The translations under genes were made by a program, and so were the position numbers. From assembly GCA_016788705.1 (NCBI GenBank), contig JAEUSQ010000049.1:1-43959 (forward strand): DNA of 43,959 nt, in the 5' to 3' direction. The notes under the pieces are model-generated. The model made no database searches and was not told the origin of the DNA. It saw only the letters and a program-made list of their open reading frames with translations. This DNA comes from Bacteroidetes Order II. bacterium. Its GTDB lineage: Bacteria; Bacteroidota; Rhodothermia; Rhodothermales; UBA2364. Positions 16,525 through 29,002 of the stretch are shown piece after piece; position 1 is the stretch's first letter; each line of letters begins with the position of its first letter.

Positions 16525-18036
16525 TTAGGGGTTGTTTTTTATGTTAAAAGCGTGCCTCACTTCTTCCCGGTCGTCAAAGTGATGCTTGGTGGTGCCTATG
16601 ATCTGGTACGGCTCGTGTCCTTTACCTGCAACAAGGATGATGTCTTCGGGTTGGGCGTGTTGGACCGCGTACCGAATGGCCTCCCTACGGTCGGGTAGCC
16701 AAAGGGCGTTTTCTGGACGTTGGAAGCCGCGTTTAATATCTTCCAATATTTTATCAGGAGATTCTGTACGTGGGTTATCGCTTGTGGCGACCGGAAAATC
16801 GGCGTACTGTTCGGCAACCCGCCCCATGATGGGCCGTTTATCCGGGTCTCGGTCTCCACCACATCCAAAGACACACCAGATTTTGCCTTCCGGTTTTTTT
16901 ATGGCATGGATGGTTTGAAGCACATTCTCTAGGGCGTCAGGCGTATGGGCATAGTCCACAATAGCCGTAATGGGGCCTTCAAAAACTTCTTGTTCAAACC
17001 TACCAGGAACAGGTGGCGCGGTGGCTAAAACGTCCAAAACCTCTTTGGGTGTAAAGCCCAGTGCCAGTCCCACGGCATACGCTGCCGTGAGGTTATACGC
17101 GTTAAATCGTCCGACCAGACGGAACGTGCAATCGTGTCCATCTAAGCGTAGATGAAGGCCGGAAACCGAGTCCTCCAGCAGTTGAAACCGAATCTGAGCC
17201 GCATCGCTCGTACCGTAGGAAATTTTTCGGGCGGGTGTATCTATGAGCATGCCAGGTCCTGTTGGATCGTCGGCATTTGTGAGTGCGGTTGCACTTTCGG
17301 GCAAGTCGTCAAACAGTTTTTTCTTGGCCAGCCGATAGGCTTCAACCGTCCGGTGGTAGTCTAAATGGTCATGGGTGAGATTGGAGAAGACAGCCACGTC
17401 AAAATCTCGCCCCATCACCCGGTATTGGTCTAAAGCGTGCGAAGAAACCTCCATCACGGCATACGAACATCCGGCAAAAGACATTTGGCGTAGCAGTGCA
17501 TTAAGGGTTACCGCAGAAGGAGTGGTATGGGTGGCAGGGATTTCTTTATCGCCAATTCGATATGAAATGGTGCCAATTAATCCTGTTTTATGCCCCAATT
17601 CTTGTAATAGGTGGTGAATCAGCCATGTGGTGGTGGTTTTGCCATTTGTGCCCGTCACCCCAATCAGGTTGATTGAAGAGGCGGGATATTGCCAAAGTGC
17701 CGCCGAAAGCTCAGCCAAGGCTTTTCTGGTATCCGAAACACAGGCGAAATGGATTGTGGCAGTACGGTCTTCGGGCATTGTTTCACAAATAATACCCAAA
17801 GCGCCTTTCTCGATGGCTTTATGAATAAACCCATGACCATCGGCAGCTATCCCGCGAATGGCCACAAATAAGCCGTTTTCACCAACTTCTCTGCTGTCAT
17901 CGGAGAGGTGGTTTATGGTTGTCTCAGCCACTGTTGGACTAAAAGTGGAGGCAACGAGTAATCCACGGTCCCGCAAAACATCCAATACGTTCTGCCAAGT
18001 CATTTCAGGGGCGGTATGTGTTGAATTAATTTTCAC
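16525..18036 (-). CDS. murE: UDP-MurNAc-tripeptide synthetase MurE (meso-DAP adding)
   Basis: Adds the third amino acid to the peptidoglycan stem. The ATP loop GTNGKTTTTWLIHHLL is near residues 129-144, the region VMEVSSHALDQYR is the usual MurE signature, and TSDNPRTESP contains DNPR, which in this family marks meso-diaminopimelate as substrate rather than lysine. GKGHEPYQ closes the C-terminal domain. It is 503 residues, normal. The start overlaps the ftsI stop by 4 bp. Confidence 0.96.
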   Translation of the reverse strand: MKINSTHTAPEMTWQNVLDVLRDRGLLVASTFSPTVAETTINHLSDDSREVGENGLFVAIRGIAADGHGFIHKAIEKGALGIICETMPEDRTATIHFACVSDTRKALAELSAALWQYPASSINLIGVTGTNGKTTTTWLIHHLLQELGHKTGLIGTISYRIGDKEIPATHTTPSAVTLNALLRQMSFAGCSYAVMEVSSHALDQYRVMGRDFDVAVFSNLTHDHLDYHRTVEAYRLAKKKLFDDLPESATALTNADDPTGPGMLIDTPARKISYGTSDAAQIRFQLLEDSVSGLHLRLDGHDCTFRLVGRFNAYNLTAAYAVGLALGFTPKEVLDVLATAPPVPGRFEQEVFEGPITAIVDYAHTPDALENVLQTIHAIKKPEGKIWCVFGCGGDRDPDKRPIMGRVAEQYADFPVATSDNPRTESPDKILEDIKRGFQRPENALWLPDRREAIRYAVQHAQPEDIILVAGKGHEPYQIIGTTKHHFDDREEVRHAFNIKNNP

Positions 18037-20204
18037 TCGTATCCAAATAATACGGCGGCTTGCGGTACTGCTGCGCCCGGTTCGGGAGATTGGCGAATAA
18101 TGCGTCCACCTCCTTTTAATACAACTTTGATGCTACGTGCGGTTAACCAGTTCATGGCTTGTCGGGCATCCATTCCACGTACATCCGGCATTTCTTTAAG
18201 GGGCTTAGGTGCTTCATTGTTTACCTCCAATGTCACAACCGTTCCCAATTTCTGGATACTGCCAGCTTTCGGTTGTTGACCAACAACCGTTGACCAAGGG
18301 GTGACCGAAGGTGCTACCTTAAATCCCGAAGCAATAAGACGGGTGGTGGCGACTGTTTCTGGTACGCCCAAAACATTCGGAACGGGCGCCTCGGCACGTT
18401 TAGGGATATGCTGTGCGGGGCTAAGTCTTTGGCCTACATTCGGTAGTAGCGGAATGAGCCGCTGGGCCATATTCTTAAAAATGGGAGCGGCTGTTTCGCC
18501 CCCATAAATATTGGTTTTAGGTTCATCCAACACGATGACAATAACCACTTCTGGCTTGTCAGCAGGGAAGAAACCAGCAAAAGAAGCCCGATAAAGGCCA
18601 TCCGTATAGACACGGTTAATGGTTTTTCTGGCGGTTCCTGTTTTTCCGCCAATGCGGAGTCCTTGGATATATGCAGGATTTCCGGTCCCTGAAGGAAGCT
18701 CGACGGCCCGTTCAAAAACGTTTTCCCGAAGGCTTTGCGCAACTTCCGGTTTACAAAACTGGCGAACCATCTGCGGCGAGGATTTCCAGAGAAGGCGGCC
18801 ATCGGGGGCGCGGCGTTCCTGTACCAAGAAGGGTCTCATTAGCTTGCATTCGTTGGCAAGGGCTGCGTAGGCCATAGCCATTTGTAGAGGTGAAACATCT
18901 ACATTGTACCCGCGACTCATCGAGTTTTTGGTAATGCGATTCCACTTCCCCGGCCTCCTAAAACCACCACTGGCTTCGCCGGGCAGGTCCACCAAGGTCG
19001 TTTGGCCAAATCCCATCAGGCGAAGAAATTGATAAAATTCATGGTCTTTGAGCCGTTCAGCTACTTGACCGATACCGATGTTGGAAGAATACACCAACAC
19101 ATCCGCAAAACTCAATTTGCCTCGTGGATGATCGTCACGAACAATATTTCCGTGGAAGTTCCACCGTCCGCCACCTGTCGCAAACGAATCGCGGTAAGAA
19201 ACACGGTTCATCTCTAAGGCTGCGAGTGCTGGGACCAATTTAAAGGTGGACCCCGGTTCTATCTGGGATTGAACGGCATGATTGGTTTGGGCCTTGTTTG
19301 GGTCCCAATTGGGGTTAATTACTCTGGATGGCAAGTTCGGATCAAAGGTCGGGACATTGGCCATTGCCAAAATACCACCAGTTTTAGGATGAACAGCAAT
19401 GGCTGTTCCCCAAGTTGCGCCTACACTTTGTACACCTTTCAGAAGTTCATCTTCCAAAATGGTTTGCCAACCAAGGTCTAAGGTTAATACCACCGATTCG
19501 CCGTGGCGAGGTTCTGTAACGGGGCCTTCGGAGATGGCTTGTTGTCTAACCGTATAGGTACCATTCGGGAGGAGAATTGGGCGGCTCTTTTGTAAAGGGC
19601 GCTTACCATCTTCCCCGCTTAGAAGATGGTTGTATTGGCGCTCAAGACCCGTTTGGCCTTCGCTATTTACCATAAACCCCAATACATTGCTCGCTAAAAC
19701 CCCATTGTTGTAGCGTCGCGACATCGTTTGACGGAACATTAGGCCCGGAATTCCCCACCATTCAATTTTCCGTTTTTGTTCTTCTGTTAGTTTTTGTGAG
19801 ACCAAAATGTTTCGCTTGTTTGAGGCACTTCGTAGCAGTAACGCATAATGCGCTTCGGGACGCCCCGTTAAAGCGGAAAGGTATCGTACAAACCGGACCC
19901 GTTCATTTTCGAAGCTGAGGGTTTTTTGGTTTTTTTGCAGTTGAATAGACGTAGTGGCATCTACATAAAGGTCATACCGTGCTTCATTGGCCGCAAGGGT
20001 CCGGCCTTCACGGTCTAAAATTGCGCCACGCATGGCGGGAATTACCTCTAAGGAATTGGCTTGTTCTTCGCCGCGTGCCCGTAATTCTTCACCTCTAAAC
20101 CATACAAGCCGTACCATCTGCCCCAGAATAAGGAGGGGCAAAACACCGAGCAAGGCCAGCGTCACCGTCAAGCGGTTAAAGATTTGATTTCTGATGTCAG
20201 CCAT
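18033..20204 (-). CDS. ftsI: Septal penicillin-binding protein FtsI with two PASTA domains
   Basis: A class B transpeptidase that cross-links septal peptidoglycan. It has a short cytoplasmic start and one membrane helix (TLALLGVLPLLILGQMV), followed by the dimerisation domain. The transpeptidase domain has STFK (nucleophile Ser319), SSN at 373-375 and KTGT at 521-524. Two C-terminal PASTA repeats follow at roughly 608-661 and 671-723. The PASTA tail makes it longer (723 residues) than E. coli FtsI (588). PASTA modules bind peptidoglycan or beta-lactams in other proteins. It ends with a 4-bp overlap into murE; ftsL lies 56 bp upstream. Confidence 0.95.
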   Translation of the reverse strand: MADIRNQIFNRLTVTLALLGVLPLLILGQMVRLVWFRGEELRARGEEQANSLEVIPAMRGAILDREGRTLAANEARYDLYVDATTSIQLQKNQKTLSFENERVRFVRYLSALTGRPEAHYALLLRSASNKRNILVSQKLTEEQKRKIEWWGIPGLMFRQTMSRRYNNGVLASNVLGFMVNSEGQTGLERQYNHLLSGEDGKRPLQKSRPILLPNGTYTVRQQAISEGPVTEPRHGESVVLTLDLGWQTILEDELLKGVQSVGATWGTAIAVHPKTGGILAMANVPTFDPNLPSRVINPNWDPNKAQTNHAVQSQIEPGSTFKLVPALAALEMNRVSYRDSFATGGGRWNFHGNIVRDDHPRGKLSFADVLVYSSNIGIGQVAERLKDHEFYQFLRLMGFGQTTLVDLPGEASGGFRRPGKWNRITKNSMSRGYNVDVSPLQMAMAYAALANECKLMRPFLVQERRAPDGRLLWKSSPQMVRQFCKPEVAQSLRENVFERAVELPSGTGNPAYIQGLRIGGKTGTARKTINRVYTDGLYRASFAGFFPADKPEVVIVIVLDEPKTNIYGGETAAPIFKNMAQRLIPLLPNVGQRLSPAQHIPKRAEAPVPNVLGVPETVATTRLIASGFKVAPSVTPWSTVVGQQPKAGSIQKLGTVVTLEVNNEAPKPLKEMPDVRGMDARQAMNWLTARSIKVVLKGGGRIIRQSPEPGAAVPQAAVLFGYE

Positions 20205-20260
20205 AGGTGGTTAGGTGGCCGTTTATAAATCTGTTTGTCGCCCCATTAGGGTTGCGAACA

Positions 20261-20752
20261 TTATGGGATTAAACCCGATTGCGGAATAAGGATGTCGTCT
20301 GCATAATGGTATCCTTCCACCAAGCCCAGTCGCTTTGCTGCTTCAACAAGGCTTTGGGGCTCGGTAATCCGGTCGTATTCGGCAGTTAACCGATTGCGTT
20401 CCAAGTGCAGACGAATGTTATCTTTTCGCAGTTGTTGTACATGACTTAACAACTTTTGCGCATCATAAACATGACGTACGTACAAAGTACCGATCATTGC
20501 AAACAACAACATGAGTAAAAAAAGCGGCAAGCTGCGGAATTTATCTGCTTTTTTAGACTCCGCCTCAATGACAGCATCCGTAATGGCCTTACTTCCTCGG
20601 TTCGAAAGGTCGTCCCAAGTGGGCAAGGGTCCCGAAGCCACTTTAGGCCCAACAACAATTCCATCCGGTCCAATACCCCAACTCCGCTTTTCATCGGCGA
20701 GTGCACCCATGAATTTACTCTCTTTACGCTTTTTCTTGAACCGATTGTTCAT
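20261..20752 (-). CDS. ftsL: FtsL-like division protein
   Basis: A 163-residue bitopic protein. A basic, soluble N-terminal part of about 75 residues leads to one membrane segment (LPLFLLMLLFAMIGTLYV), then a heptad-rich coiled coil (LLSHVQQLRKDNIRLHLERN) and a TEPQSLVEAAKRLGLVEG end typical of FtsL/DivIC-type proteins. These bind FtsB and FtsQ in the periplasm and activate FtsWI. Sequence conservation in the family is weak; the position between rsmH and ftsI, with a 4-bp ATGA overlap with rsmH, is the main support. The cytoplasmic tail is longer than usual. Confidence 0.85.
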   Translation of the reverse strand: MNNRFKKKRKESKFMGALADEKRSWGIGPDGIVVGPKVASGPLPTWDDLSNRGSKAITDAVIEAESKKADKFRSLPLFLLMLLFAMIGTLYVRHVYDAQKLLSHVQQLRKDNIRLHLERNRLTAEYDRITEPQSLVEAAKRLGLVEGYHYADDILIPQSGLIP

Positions 20753-21717
20753 GCCGATGGTGTTTCGGTTCGTGTTGCGATGCGCAGTTTTGCACTTCGA
20801 GCACGAGGATTTGTAAAAATTTCGTTTTCGGTTGCCTCAATAGCTTTTGGCAGGATTAATTGCCAAGGCGTTATTAGATTTCCAAAAAAATCTTTATATG
20901 GTACTCCCTCAAAGTTTCCAAATTTCAAGAATCGTTTCACGGGGCGGTCTTCCAGTGAATGATAAGTGATTACGGCGAGTTTACCACCGGGCTTCACAAG
21001 GGTGAGTGTTGCACGCAGAACGTCTTCTAAAACGGTCAATTCTTCATTTACGGCAATCCTAAATGCCTGAAAAACACGTGCAAGCGTTTTATGCTGTTCT
21101 GGTCCCTTAACAACCTCCCTAATACAATCCGCAAACGCTTCTGTTGTCTCGAAAGGACGTTTTTTTAGCATATTCCGCACTATTGTAACCGCACGCTTTT
21201 CTTCTCCAAACGTCCAAATGATGCGCCGGAGCGCCTGTTCGTCCAGATGATTGATTAAGGCTGAGGCTGGCATACCCGTTTGGGAATCCATTCGCATATC
21301 TAAAGGGCCAGCTCCTTGAAAACTGAATCCTCTGGAGCGGTTGTCTAACTGGTGAGACGAGACGCCCAGATCCAGCAGAATCCCATCCACTGTGTCAATT
21401 TCGAGTTGTTGCAAGAGTGCCTTCAGATGGCCAAAATTGCCATATAGTGGAGTGAAGCGTGTGTCATGCTTCAGCCTTTCACCTGCAACACGGAGGGCCT
21501 CTTGGTCTTGGTCAATGCCAATGACCCGTGCTCCCGACGCTAATTGGTCTAAGAGTGCCGCTGTATGACCACCTCCCCCCAAGGTTCCATCCACATAGAT
21601 GCCATTAGGATCTCCTATCAGGTGCAAACAAACTTCTTTACAAAGAACAGGGGTGTGGTATGGGGTCGCGTATGGTTGAGGCGCTTCCTCTACGTTGCCC
21701 TTGGCGGAGCGCTTCAT
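20749..21717 (-). CDS. rsmH: 16S rRNA (cytosine-1402-N4)-methyltransferase RsmH
   Basis: Methylates C1402 of 16S rRNA. The early motif YHTPVLCKEVCLHL, the SAM-binding VDGTLGGGGHTAALL, then VDGILLDLGVSSHQLD and RGFSFQGAGPLDMRMD are diagnostic, as is the late ITYHSLEDRPVKRFLK. The ATG at 21717 gives 322 residues and an ATGA overlap with the mraZ stop. A longer frame to 21810 would run back through the mraZ end and has no family support. Confidence 0.95.
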   Translation of the reverse strand: MKRSAKGNVEEAPQPYATPYHTPVLCKEVCLHLIGDPNGIYVDGTLGGGGHTAALLDQLASGARVIGIDQDQEALRVAGERLKHDTRFTPLYGNFGHLKALLQQLEIDTVDGILLDLGVSSHQLDNRSRGFSFQGAGPLDMRMDSQTGMPASALINHLDEQALRRIIWTFGEEKRAVTIVRNMLKKRPFETTEAFADCIREVVKGPEQHKTLARVFQAFRIAVNEELTVLEDVLRATLTLVKPGGKLAVITYHSLEDRPVKRFLKFGNFEGVPYKDFFGNLITPWQLILPKAIEATENEIFTNPRARSAKLRIATRTETPSA

Positions 21718-22172
21718 TCGGCCTCCCGTTTTCCCATTACCGACTGGATTCGGGTGCCATATTGGGCATCTTCCTCGGCCAGTTCGGCGATTAGCACATC
21801 CGGATTCCAAATTTCGATACGGTCTAATGCACCGATAATGGTCACTTTCTCTGCAATGCCTGCAAATTCAATGAGCCGTTTGGAAATGGTGACGCGTCCT
21901 TGTCCGTCTAAAGTTTCCTCATCTGCCCAGCGATACATCGAGCGAAGCATGGCACGGGTCTCTGGCTCGTATTGATTTAGGTGCTCAAATTCAGCAGTTT
22001 CTTTCTTATTCCAGACATCCAAAGGGTAAAGATATACACATCGCTCAATGCCCCGCGTAAGGACAAATGTATCGTTGGCAGCGGGACTTAGGGCACGGCG
22101 CATCTTTGCTGGAAGGGCTACTCGCCCTTTCGCATCTACTGAATAATCTGCTTGTCCTTTAAATCCGGCCAT
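21714..22172 (-). CDS. mraZ: Transcriptional regulator MraZ
   Basis: A DNA-binding protein with two AbrB-like folds that forms ring oligomers and, where studied, represses its own dcw operon. Both copies of the motif are visible: SVDAKGRVALPAKMRRAL near residues 12-29 and LDGQGRVTISKRLIEFAG near 92-109. At 152 residues it matches the family. It heads the dcw cluster, and phased TGGGG repeats lie 35-69 bases upstream of its start, which fits autoregulation. Confidence 0.95.
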   Translation of the reverse strand: MAGFKGQADYSVDAKGRVALPAKMRRALSPAANDTFVLTRGIERCVYLYPLDVWNKKETAEFEHLNQYEPETRAMLRSMYRWADEETLDGQGRVTISKRLIEFAGIAEKVTIIGALDRIEIWNPDVLIAELAEEDAQYGTRIQSVMGKREAE

Positions 22173-22206
22173 TGGAGCCTATTTTGATACTATTGATGGA
22201 TTTTTT

Positions 22207-22241
22207 CCCCACTGCTTGGGTTTATCCCCCACATTTCCCCA
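22207..22241 (-). promoter_or_regulatory. Putative MraZ box upstream of mraZ
   Basis: Read on the minus strand, TGGGG occurs at 22241-22237, 22231-22227 and 22211-22207, that is with steps of 10 and 20 bases, so all on one helix face. MraZ sites described in other bacteria are TGGG-type direct repeats separated by 5 bases; the first pair here has exactly that form (TGGGGAAATGTGGGG). Assignment is by pattern and position. Confidence 0.6.
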
Positions 22242-22353
22242 CAACCTCAAACTATTAACTTTCCCATTGAAATGCACGCCTGTTTTTCAACATGTCCAAC
22301 GTTATTATCCACATATGACTCGCACAAACATATTGTTTACATTTTTATTTTGA

Positions 22354-22413
22354 TAATAGGTGGATATATAATCACCTGTTATGATATAATATTGATTTTA
22401 TATTCACCTATTA
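22354..22413 (+). promoter_or_regulatory. Repeated half-sites forming a putative operator of the LexA-like gene
   Basis: TAATAGGTG at 22354-22362 is the exact reverse complement of CACCTATTA at 22405-22413, and a one-mismatch copy CACCTGTTA stands at 22373-22381. The first and second make a palindrome with a 10-base A/T spacer. The last lies 7 bases before the promoter element TATTTTTG. A repressor bound here would block the lexA-like promoter, and possibly affect divergent mraZ. The binding protein is not shown; the LexA-like product itself is the natural candidate. Confidence 0.6.
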
Positions 22414-22427
22414 GAATCTTATTTTTG
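22392..22427 (+). promoter_or_regulatory. Bacteroidota-type promoter of the LexA-like gene
   Basis: TATTTTTG at 22420-22427 fits the Bacteroidota -7 consensus TAnnTTTG, and a TTG at 22392-22394 is an approximate -33 element with a 25-base spacer. The start codon follows 39 bases after the -7 element, and an operator half-site lies between the two elements. Confidence 0.5.
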
Positions 22428-22466: not shown

Positions 22467-23108
22467 ATGGCCGATAGACGATTGACGGAACGCCAACTTC
22501 AGGTTCTCGGATTTATTCGGGATTATATACGCTCCTTTCAGAAACCACCCACGTTGAAAGAACTGGCAGGCTTAATGGGCATTCAATCTACCAATGCGGT
22601 ACACAAGGTGATCCGTATTTTGGTGGACAAAGGGTATTTGCAAAAAGAAGGCCACACTTCTCGCGGCATTCGTCTGGTAGAGGATGCTGGGGGGATGAAA
22701 GATGGGGGAGGGGTGCCCGTTTTACCCGTGGTATCAGTGCCGCCACGTTCCGGTGAAACGTGGTCGTTAGGCCGATACCGTACAATGGCGGTGGATGCCC
22801 ATTTGCTACGGAATGCCCGCGAACAACATTGCATGGTGGTGGTTGTGGGAGATGATGGCATGGCAAAAGAGGGCATCCGGGTTGGTGATTGGGTGGTTGT
22901 CGAGACGGGACCACTCTCTATGCTTCAGGAGGGTGAGATGGTTCTGGCCATGATACGTGAGCGCCCGGTTGTTCGTTACTTATATGCTGCGCGTTGGCAA
23001 GTGATGCTGCGCCCTGCGGAAAAACGCTATACAGAAGAAGTGTTTAATACCAATTCGCCTGATTGCTACGTGGTTGGTCGGTTAATTGGCTTGATGCGGC
23101 GATATTAA
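22467..23108 (+). CDS. LexA-family repressor lacking the self-cleavage residues
   Basis: 213 residues with the LexA layout. The N-terminal winged helix (LTERQLQVLGFIRDYI, then GIQSTNAVHKVIRILVDKGYL, then GHTSRGIRL) is highly typical. The C-terminal half has the S24-like fold (VVVVGDDGMAKEGIRVGDWV, QEGEMVLAMI, VVGRLIGLMRRY). In E. coli LexA, Ser119 lies in GMSM and Lys156 in TVKR; the aligned residues here are Gly131 (GGC at 22857) and Arg170 (CGT at 22974). The Ala-Gly cleavage site is also absent: the region reads VVSVPPRSG. It should therefore bind DNA and dimerise but not autocleave on RecA activation. A true LexA may exist elsewhere in the genome. It is divergent from mraZ, with operator-like repeats in its promoter. 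Confidence 0.88.
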   Translation: MADRRLTERQLQVLGFIRDYIRSFQKPPTLKELAGLMGIQSTNAVHKVIRILVDKGYLQKEGHTSRGIRLVEDAGGMKDGGGVPVLPVVSVPPRSGETWSLGRYRTMAVDAHLLRNAREQHCMVVVVGDDGMAKEGIRVGDWVVVETGPLSMLQEGEMVLAMIRERPVVRYLYAARWQVMLRPAEKRYTEEVFNTNSPDCYVVGRLIGLMRRY

Positions 23109-27100: not shown

Positions 27101-29002
27101 ATGTCAAACACCACACGAATTCAGGCCAGATCCAGTCATGCCATGCGCTTGGAGAGATTGCCTGTCCTCATTTTTGATGATCCGGCACAAATGGCGCGAC
27201 AAGTTGCCAGAAAAGTGGCCAACCTTATCCAAGACCGTGCCGTTACCGGAAGAATGGCCGTATTGGGCCTTCCGACAGGTTCTACACCTATTGGCGTTTA
27301 TCGTGAATTGGTTCGGATGCACCAAGAAGAAGGGTTGGATTTTTCCAATGTCATCACGTTTAACCTCGACGAATATTACCCGATGAAGCCCGATGCGCTG
27401 CAAAGTTATCATCGGTTTATGGAGGAAAATCTTTTCAAACATGTCAATGTTCCTCGTAAGAATATCCATATTCCCCGTGGCGATATCCCCCGTGAAGAAG
27501 TGGACACGCATTGCGATGAATATGAATGGCAAATTAAAAAGGCGGGTGGAATAGACCTGATGTTATTGGGCATAGGTCGAAGTGGGCATATTGGCTTCAA
27601 TGAGCCGGGTTCTCGCCGCGACGATCGTACCCGAATGGTTGTTTTGGACGAAGTGACACGCCGAGATGCTGCTGGGGATTTCTTCGAAGAGAAAAATGTC
27701 CCTCGCGAAGCCATCACGATGGGGGTAGGGTCAATTCTAGAGTGCCGTGAAATCATCCTAATGGCCACGGGTGAACACAAAGGTTATATTATCCGAAAAG
27801 CCGTAGAAGAAGAACCCAATAGCAGTGTGACCGCCTCGTTTTTGCAGGAACACCTCCAGTGTACCTTCTATGTGGATCGGGCGTCGGCGAGTGAATTAAC
27901 ACGCGAAAAAACACCTTGGATTGTGGGTGATGTTTCATGGAGTGCCGAAATGGCCCGTAAAGCGGTTGTTTGGTTGGCTAAAAAAATCAAAAAACCAATC
28001 CTGCATCTGGAAACCGCAGACTTTCACCACCACCATATGCACGATTTGGTCAATGCTCATGGGACTGCGGATGAACTGACGTATAAAATCTTTATGGAGC
28101 TTCGGGATCGTATCAAATACCAGCCTGAATTGCCCAAGAAAAAGTCTTGTATCTGCTTTAGTCCCCATCCAGACGATGATGTCATCTCGATGGGAGGGAT
28201 GCTCGGAAAATTAGCCCAGAACAAAAATGATGTGACCGTTGCTTACATGACGAACGGATCGGTTGCCGTATTTGATATGGATGTGGAACGCCATCTGAGG
28301 TTTCTAGAGATGTCTGCACGGCTCCACGGCGGTGCGGAAGGAGAAGCCCGTATCAAAGCCTTTACACGTCCGATTTTTGATTTTATCACCCACAAAAAAC
28401 CCGGCCAAATAGACACTGCCGAGATTCAACAGTTGAAGGCTTATATCCGATACACCGAAGCCATTGCCGGAATTGAAGTAATGGGCTTGCACGAAAAGGA
28501 CGCACGTTTTCTGGATATGCCCTTTTATAAGACAGGGGAGGTAAAAAAAGCCCCCATTGGCGAAGACGATGTTCAGATTGTTTTAGACCTCTTCAATGAG
28601 CACAAGCCAGATCATATTTATGTGGCAGGGGATTTGTCTGATCCGCATGGAACACACCGAATGTGTTATACGGCCATCAAGCGGGCATTAGAGAAATATA
28701 ACCAACAAGAAGGGGTGAAGAAACCACTCGTTTGGCTATACCGTGGGGCTTGGCAAGAATGGGAAATTGAGAAAGCCGATATCTTTTTACCCATGTCTAA
28801 AGCAGACCTAAGCCAAAAAATTGACGCCATCTACAAACATGAAAGTCAAAAAGACCGGGCCCTTTTTCCTGGTTCGGATGCCCGTGAATTTTGGGAACGG
28901 GCGCGCGACCGCAATGTGGGCTTAGCCCGCGAAATGGATGCCCTTGGTTTACCAGAATTTTATGCGGCGGAGGCCTATGTGACCTGCCACGAAATGCCAT
29001 AA
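27101..29002 (+). CDS. nagB: Glucosamine-6-phosphate deaminase fused to a PIG-L deacetylase domain
   Basis: A 633-residue two-domain protein. Residues ~20-290 are the NagB fold: LGLPTGSTPIGVYREL, FNLDEYY (Asp90) and LLGIGRSGHIGFNEPGS (His163, Glu168). In E. coli NagB the loop is GVGNDGHIAFNEP with catalytic Asp141; that place is Ser161 here. Residues ~348-590 are a PIG-L/LmbE-type zinc deacetylase: FSPHPDDDVISMGGML (ligand cluster 356-359) and GDLSDPHGTHRMCY. NagB turns GlcN6P into fructose-6-P and ammonia; PIG-L enzymes remove N-acetyl from GlcNAc derivatives. The fusion suggests both steps of GlcNAc use in one polypeptide. Such fusions are known in Bacteroidota. It stands alone. Confidence 0.9.
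   Translation: MSNTTRIQARSSHAMRLERLPVLIFDDPAQMARQVARKVANLIQDRAVTGRMAVLGLPTGSTPIGVYRELVRMHQEEGLDFSNVITFNLDEYYPMKPDALQSYHRFMEENLFKHVNVPRKNIHIPRGDIPREEVDTHCDEYEWQIKKAGGIDLMLLGIGRSGHIGFNEPGSRRDDRTRMVVLDEVTRRDAAGDFFEEKNVPREAITMGVGSILECREIILMATGEHKGYIIRKAVEEEPNSSVTASFLQEHLQCTFYVDRASASELTREKTPWIVGDVSWSAEMARKAVVWLAKKIKKPILHLETADFHHHHMHDLVNAHGTADELTYKIFMELRDRIKYQPELPKKKSCICFSPHPDDDVISMGGMLGKLAQNKNDVTVAYMTNGSVAVFDMDVERHLRFLEMSARLHGGAEGEARIKAFTRPIFDFITHKKPGQIDTAEIQQLKAYIRYTEAIAGIEVMGLHEKDARFLDMPFYKTGEVKKAPIGEDDVQIVLDLFNEHKPDHIYVAGDLSDPHGTHRMCYTAIKRALEKYNQQEGVKKPLVWLYRGAWQEWEIEKADIFLPMSKADLSQKIDAIYKHESQKDRALFPGSDAREFWERARDRNVGLAREMDALGLPEFYAAEAYVTCHEMP

Follow-up and report, generated by a model that had tools for sequence, protein, structure and literature searches.

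In its usual role, LexA ties repair, and in some bacteria also the arrest of division, to DNA damage. Among the closest described systems, LexA of Synechocystis sp. PCC 6803 is not cleaved, carries Gly-Gly instead of the Ala-Gly bond and Asp instead of the catalytic Ser, and acts as a broad non-SOS regulator (PMC3091678, PMC7567884). The non-canonical LexA of Bacteroidetes has a helix-turn-helix of the phage CI type, keeps both the Ala-Gly bond and the catalytic dyad and runs the SOS response (Sanchez-Osuna et al., 2021, PMC8565304; Rhodothermus and Salinibacter are not mentioned in the text of this paper), while LexA2 of Leptospira retains Ser and Lys, has a Cys-Gly bond, is depleted after ultraviolet irradiation and has the TTGTAN10TACAA operator at its own promoter (PMC3789691). 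Here, we describe a catalytically dead, mraZ-linked LexA paralog encoded in a 43,959-nucleotide stretch of DNA from a Bacteroidetes Order II. bacterium of the order Rhodothermales (contig JAEUSQ010000049.1), hereafter the window. The gene is an open reading frame with an ATG start (22467..23108, + strand; 213 amino acids plus stop) assigned by its Pfam domains and by its placement in a clade. Judging from alignments, its product is a relative of LexA having lost self-cleavage, and it falls within an old and distinct clade of LexA paralogs spread over Rhodothermales and other GTDB-Bacteroidota families; members of this clade are called dead below. With a probability of roughly 0.7, we consider it to be a RecA-insensitive, self-regulating local repressor of the divergent promoter region between lexA and mraZ, and a member of a clade that has given up both self-cleavage and SOS control.

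Pfam search assigned residues 4-67 (22476..22667, + strand) to the winged-helix domain LexA_DNA_bind (PF01726; 56.9 bits and 1.7e-15 in the protein search, 59.5 bits in the genome search) and residues 106-207 to Peptidase_S24 (PF00717; 41.4 bits, 1.4e-10). Both scores exceed the cut-offs, in line with the intact DNA-binding half proposed in a preliminary description made from the sequence; PF01381, the phage CI-type helix-turn-helix, was not among the Pfam matches of this protein. Against TIGR00498, the NCBIfam equivalog model of lexA, it scored 99.2 bits, which is below the curated cut-off of 110.95. The AlphaFold2 model, computed from an alignment of the window protein with its nearest relative, deepened by canonical LexAs from viral contigs (mean predicted local distance difference test score 78), matched the LexA-DNA complex 3jsp_B with Z 16.0, its DNA-binding domain matched 1lea with Z 11.2, and its C-terminal domain matched 1jhc with Z 14.3 over 119 residues at a root mean square deviation of 2.7; for LexA C-terminal fragments overall, Z was about 14 and the deviation 2.4-2.8. 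Sequence and model agree in that the predicted fold is that of LexA.

The elements needed for cleavage are nevertheless replaced. In the alignment with E. coli LexA, Gly131 stands at the position of the catalytic Ser119 and Arg170 (22974..22976, + strand) at that of the catalytic Lys156; Gly131 closes the triplet Asp129-Asp130-Gly131 (22851..22859, + strand), the first residue of which occupies the Gly117 position. The linker segment VSVPPRSGE, with Val91-Pro92-Pro93 (22737..22745, + strand) lying where canonical LexA carries the scissile Ala-Gly bond, faces the Ala84-Gly85 region of the E. coli protein, and the pair aligned to it is Arg-Ser, i.e. neither Ala-Gly nor Cys-Gly. The open reading frame and this alignment bear out the motifs GDDGM, VVRYL and VPP as given in the preliminary description, together with their residue numbers and coordinates, as well as its claim that all three elements of self-cleavage are substituted.

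These substitutions are not private to one genome. Dead members were searched for over GTDB Bacteroidota, combining genomes of the order, a phylum scan and fetched loci; a contig scan with the single window protein returned its nearest relative only. Orthologs with 33-89% identity were found in most families of Rhodothermales, and the phylum scan with the fetched loci added dead members in families f32, f35, f37, f41, f53, f55 and f58. Gly131 and Arg170 are invariant in 26/26 aligned orthologs, and the invariant columns of their S24 core include D129 and D141 as well, with no invariant Ser or Lys among them. A hidden alternative Ser/Lys pair elsewhere in the C-terminal domain was looked for in the same 26 proteins and is ruled out, no such pair being conserved. 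Extended to 68 dead members, the comparison gave Asp at the E. coli G117 position in all 68 and in none of the 28 canonical proteins, and Arg at the K156 position again in 68/68, while at the S119 position Gly (56) predominates over Ala (8), Thr (2) and Ser (2). The 28 canonical proteins carry Gly, Lys and Ser at these three positions throughout. Cys122 is common but not invariant among dead members (74%). Asp129 and Arg170 would together take the place of the former Ser-Lys dyad, and their invariance points to a probable salt bridge stabilising the fold.

For tree building, the columns of the cleavage site and of the catalytic Ser and Lys were taken out, and a single branch separates dead from canonical LexAs (ultrafast bootstrap 100 and Shimodaira-Hasegawa-like approximate likelihood ratio test, SH-aLRT, 95 in the careful tree; SH-aLRT 95 in the quick one). 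This is consistent with a single origin of the dead clade, its direction not being given since the trees are unrooted. A search of viral contigs with the clade profile matched relatives of the N-terminal domain only and therefore gave no sign of viral origin. The substitutions are thus common to one clade spanning many families, and the recurrence of Ser to Gly and Lys to Arg over the whole order upholds the earlier view that they do not reflect one chance mutation.

The same genome encodes RecA and, on contig C59 (L002, 372-1686), two tandem canonical LexA genes adjacent to a recO-like gene, both products keeping Ser, Lys and Ala-Gly. The idea of a genome devoid of canonical LexA is thereby rejected, and the check for a second, canonical copy proposed earlier turned up two. 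Since two canonical LexAs and RecA are present, the window copy is a further paralog, unlikely to be the one that represses SOS in this organism. It might be taken for a lexA duplicate decaying in this lineage, given that all cleavage elements are gone and that interrupted copies occur in a few relatives (G075, G068). However, the ratio of nonsynonymous to synonymous substitution rates (dN/dS), computed for the window gene against its closest relative, is 0.13 overall, and region by region it rises from only 0.046 in the dead S24 domain over 0.134 in the DNA-binding domain to 0.66 in the linker; moreover, intact orthologs with the same residues are found in 15 mraZ-linked families. Selection and distribution data refute the decaying duplicate, the chance of which is negligible, and a pseudogene is ruled out by purifying selection. 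Maintenance under selection, as assumed in the preliminary description, is evident precisely in the substituted domain, which has probably been retained because it serves dimerisation or sensing, the cleavage region being left to drift.

Such constraint leads to another possibility, compatible with a local repressor of the lexA-mraZ region, namely that the protein is a switchable S24 repressor inactivated by means other than self-cleavage, such as a ligand, phosphorylation or a host protease. By analogy with Synechocystis LexA, in which both Ala-Gly and Ser are missing and phosphorylation is the presumed means of tuning (PMC7567884), and with S24 under tighter constraint than the DNA-binding domain, as expected of a surface engaged in sensing or dimer formation, this might be the case; still, no ligand pocket or site of modification stood out as conserved, Cys122 falling short of invariance, and we regard a switch of this kind as unlikely.

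The partner of the dead gene in the genome is mraZ (21714..22172, - strand), the first gene of the divergently transcribed division and cell wall (dcw) cluster and an open reading frame whose homologs stand divergent to dead LexAs in relatives. Behind it on the - strand (16525..21810) follow open reading frames for rsmH, a short membrane protein in the ftsL position, an ftsI-type penicillin-binding protein with PASTA domains and murE, the names being read from the sequences and the rsmH adjacency recurring in relatives. MraZ itself we take to be a regulator acting at the dcw control region through direct-repeat boxes. A divergent position relative to mraZ, mostly with rsmH behind it, was found for 59 of 68 dead members from 15 families and for 0/27 canonical LexAs (Fisher p 2.5e-16, calculated ignoring relatedness). 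The positional coupling to the division and cell-wall cluster, noticed for the single locus in the preliminary description, is shared by most of the clade. On the other side of the gene the environment is changeable: CTP synthase-like genes lie downstream of dead lexA in many families, permease-like or other genes elsewhere, and isochorismate synthase in the window. Since downstream neighbours change while mraZ stays, the divergent adjacency is what persists. Further away in the window, the + strand (27101-29002) encodes a 633-amino-acid protein in which, as far as the sequence reads, an N-terminal half similar to glucosamine-6-phosphate deaminase is fused to an LmbE/PIG-L-like C-terminal half.

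Upstream of dead lexA genes of the order lie palindromes, usually two, of the RGTGAAAAT.ATTTTCACC form or GGTGAAA-N4-TTTCACC, which we regard as predicted operators. Of 45 dead genes of the order, 36 have at least one scoring site upstream, where shuffled sequences would give 0.44; the count is 0/27 for canonical lexA genes, and an operator of this type was found in none of 24 mraZ upstream regions having no intact Rhodothermales-type dead-LexA neighbour. Members of a pair are spaced by 31-33, 41-43 or 54 bp, i.e. about 3, 4 or 5 turns of 10.5 bp, with a spacing of 22 bp in some f13 loci under a looser score. In the window, operator 1 (GGTG-N10-CACC, GGTGGATATATAATCACC; 22359..22376, + strand) is a palindrome, the AGGTG-N8-ATCACC version of which is found at the same place in 3/3 genomes of the genus, and the half-degenerate operator 2 (ATTGATTTTATATTCACC; 22391..22408, + strand) lies exactly 32 bp from it, the same spacing being found in G001 and in families f3, f7, f12 and f13. 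The pattern first used for the order does not match the window's own operator, the inner bases of which differ.

A genome-wide pattern search allowing up to one mismatch was run over 23 genomes. Five of them (G004, G008, G010, G028 and G032) have exactly two near-perfect sites each, all at the lexA-mraZ locus, two more (G022 and G047) have one such site each, at the same locus, and the other scanned genomes gave stray hits only. Near-perfect operators are thus almost confined to mraZ-lexA in the five genomes of the order, recA and other SOS promoters not having been inspected singly. In the window's own genome AGGTG-N8-ATCACC has two further hits, both inside open frames, and a regulon in its own genus was rejected, lexA-mraZ being the only shared place of this motif. 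Families f41 and f55 (L065, L066, L069, L073, L077, L222, L224 and L225) have another palindrome, CTGAACA..TGTTCAG, in pairs 33-34 bp apart; as this different palindrome recurs at such a distance, the layout persists with the sequence changed. At position 47, within the recognition helix, the main Rhodothermales group has Lys, and most f41/f55 proteins have Glu or Gln, a difference that may lie behind the two operator dialects, although we offer this as no more than an idea.

The distribution of these sites bears on whether the protein still takes part in SOS, being cleaved via alternative residues or by another protease, or forming heterodimers with canonical LexA. Coexistence of canonical LexAs and RecA in the genome would allow for it, but the S24 core lacks an invariant Ser or Lys, the Lys position has changed to Arg without exception, and the operators are absent upstream of the canonical lexA genes examined, all of which makes continued SOS membership highly improbable. 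RecA would not be expected to switch off the window LexA, since the protein is predicted to resist cleavage.

Past operator 2, at a distance of 11 bp, lies TATTTTTG (22420..22427, + strand), the -7 element of the presumed lexA promoter, to which we apply TAnnTTTG as what we take to be the Bacteroidota-type -7 consensus. L005, L018, L021 and L022 likewise have TATTTTTG or TATCTTTG after operator 2, and some other loci show weaker forms. As the -7 element follows operator 2, the latter would cover the -33 region, implying autorepression, and the place of the operators lends good support to autoregulation. A perfect match to the DnaA box (TTATCCACA; 22305..22313, + strand) is situated between the promoter half of mraZ and that of lexA. 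Perfect boxes were found in 13/53 upstream regions of dead LexAs (families f1, f4, f5, f9 and f12) against 0.13 expected from shuffles, and in 0/29 upstream regions of canonical lexA genes; this conservation suggests a replication input to dcw. Three direct repeats adjoining mraZ on its strand (22204..22242, - strand; TTTCCCCAC/TCCCCCAC as read on the + strand), which presumably are MraZ boxes, recur in relatives, and in some of these, such as L018, TTGAC and TACCTT elements accompany them on the mraZ strand.

In the mechanism we propose, dimers held by the protease-dead S24 domain would occupy either a single palindromic operator or, more commonly, a pair of them spaced by a whole number of helical turns and lying on the same face of DNA. 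The operator nearest to lexA would overlap its promoter, whereby the protein would repress its own gene, and occupancy of the shared region would set or limit the firing of the mraZ/dcw promoter. The switch, if there is any, might be the protein's own dosage, another protein acting at the region (MraZ, or DnaA at loci having its box), ligand binding or modification of the repressor. Control over dcw is probable in the light of synteny, of operators confined to the locus and of general practice for divergent regulators. One may go further and suppose, quite tentatively and at somewhat less than even odds, that exchange of the dyad for the invariant Asp-Arg pair produced a dedicated dcw controller across families, possibly integrating inputs from DnaA (replication) and MraZ, and hence a replication-division element deaf to DNA damage.

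Several observations weigh against the local repressor of the lexA-mraZ region as outlined. Nine dead members (f32, f53, f58 and two of f13) do not stand beside mraZ in the stretch examined, and many genomes of Rhodothermales are without a dead lexA gene, from which it follows that the gene is dispensable. At the cut-off used, no operator scores upstream of nine of the 45 dead genes in the order, operator 2 of the window itself is half-degenerate, and the match to the -7 element is imperfect in many families. Besides, in the relatives inspected, operators are located beside lexA and precede the likely -35 element of mraZ by some 90 bp or more, and because of this placement direct dcw control is less certain than autoregulation. 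The same arrangement, with operators on the lexA side overlapping the lexA promoter, would suit an autoregulator only, which represses its own promoter and has its main targets elsewhere at weaker sites, the mraZ adjacency simply reflecting dcw stability. The dcw gene order is indeed stable in bacteria generally, and f32, f53 and f58 keep dead LexA away from mraZ. Yet genes downstream of dead lexA (CTP synthase-like, permease-like, isochorismate synthase and others) vary while mraZ stays, and five of the orthologue-bearing genomes scanned contain no other near-perfect sites, so that we hold pure autoregulation to be unlikely.

Some loci of the clade may be mentioned separately. The dead LexAs of f32, f53 and f58 for which the stretch examined shows no adjacent mraZ are L072, L079, L093, L215, L216, L228 and L229, all belonging to the same clade. 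L248 (G068, f15) appears to be a frameshifted dead-LexA remnant adjoining mraZ, with matches in two overlapping frames and no operator found there. In L091 (G075, f13) the dead lexA frame is broken by one TGA, both operators being kept 32 bp apart, which points to either recent loss or a sequencing error. One f13 metagenome-assembled genome (G092) encodes two dead LexAs (L089 and L090), one beside mraZ and the other near a contig end with mraZ not in view.

Overall, the preliminary description was right, its stable, RecA-insensitive repressor being supported by all comparative checks, but narrower, as the operators, the constant Asp/Arg pair and the breadth of families were not part of it. The LexA scaffold has apparently been re-used in many families as a permanent, damage-blind regulator at the main division gene cluster, and the annotation "LexA, SOS repressor" is misleading for such genes. 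If confirmed, this would give Rhodothermales and their relatives a seemingly undescribed division-control factor, and also a natural case of transition from S24 protease to pseudoprotease with a testable Asp/Arg signature, while two operator dialects on one architecture offer a setting for studying change of the LexA binding motif. Among open-licence papers in PMC no report tying LexA to mraZ or dcw was found, an earlier description elsewhere being possible.

In comparison with known systems, the dead LexA shares with canonical LexA (E. coli, TIGR00498) the winged-helix domain, the S24 C-terminal domain and operators at its own promoter; the canonical protein has the Ser-Lys dyad and Ala-Gly, whereas the window protein is without both, scores below the TIGR00498 cut-off and falls into a separate clade. 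Like the Synechocystis LexA, to which it is likened by description only, it has lost the Ala-Gly site and the catalytic Ser. That case, however, concerns a single species with Ser changed to Asp, while here it is the G117 position that became Asp, Ser is mostly replaced by Gly and Lys by Arg, and the proteins make up a clade that spans many families and is linked to mraZ, the genome of the window encoding canonical LexAs as well. The non-canonical LexA of Bacteroidetes is an S24-family regulator too, but the window protein has LexA_DNA_bind instead of its helix-turn-helix and carries neither Ala-Gly nor the dyad. Leptospira LexA2 resembles it as an extra lexA with its own operator and differs by the intact dyad. 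MraZ acts at the same dcw control region through direct-repeat boxes of its own but represents an unrelated protein family, the dead LexA being its divergent neighbour with separate operators. What seems to be new, as far as sequences tell, is the conserved replacement of the active site, the genomic partner and an almost single-locus predicted regulon, all imposed on a known kind of LexA-fold repressor: canonical LexA governs a dispersed regulon, whereas near-perfect predicted operators of the dead LexA lie almost only at one locus in the five genomes of the order.
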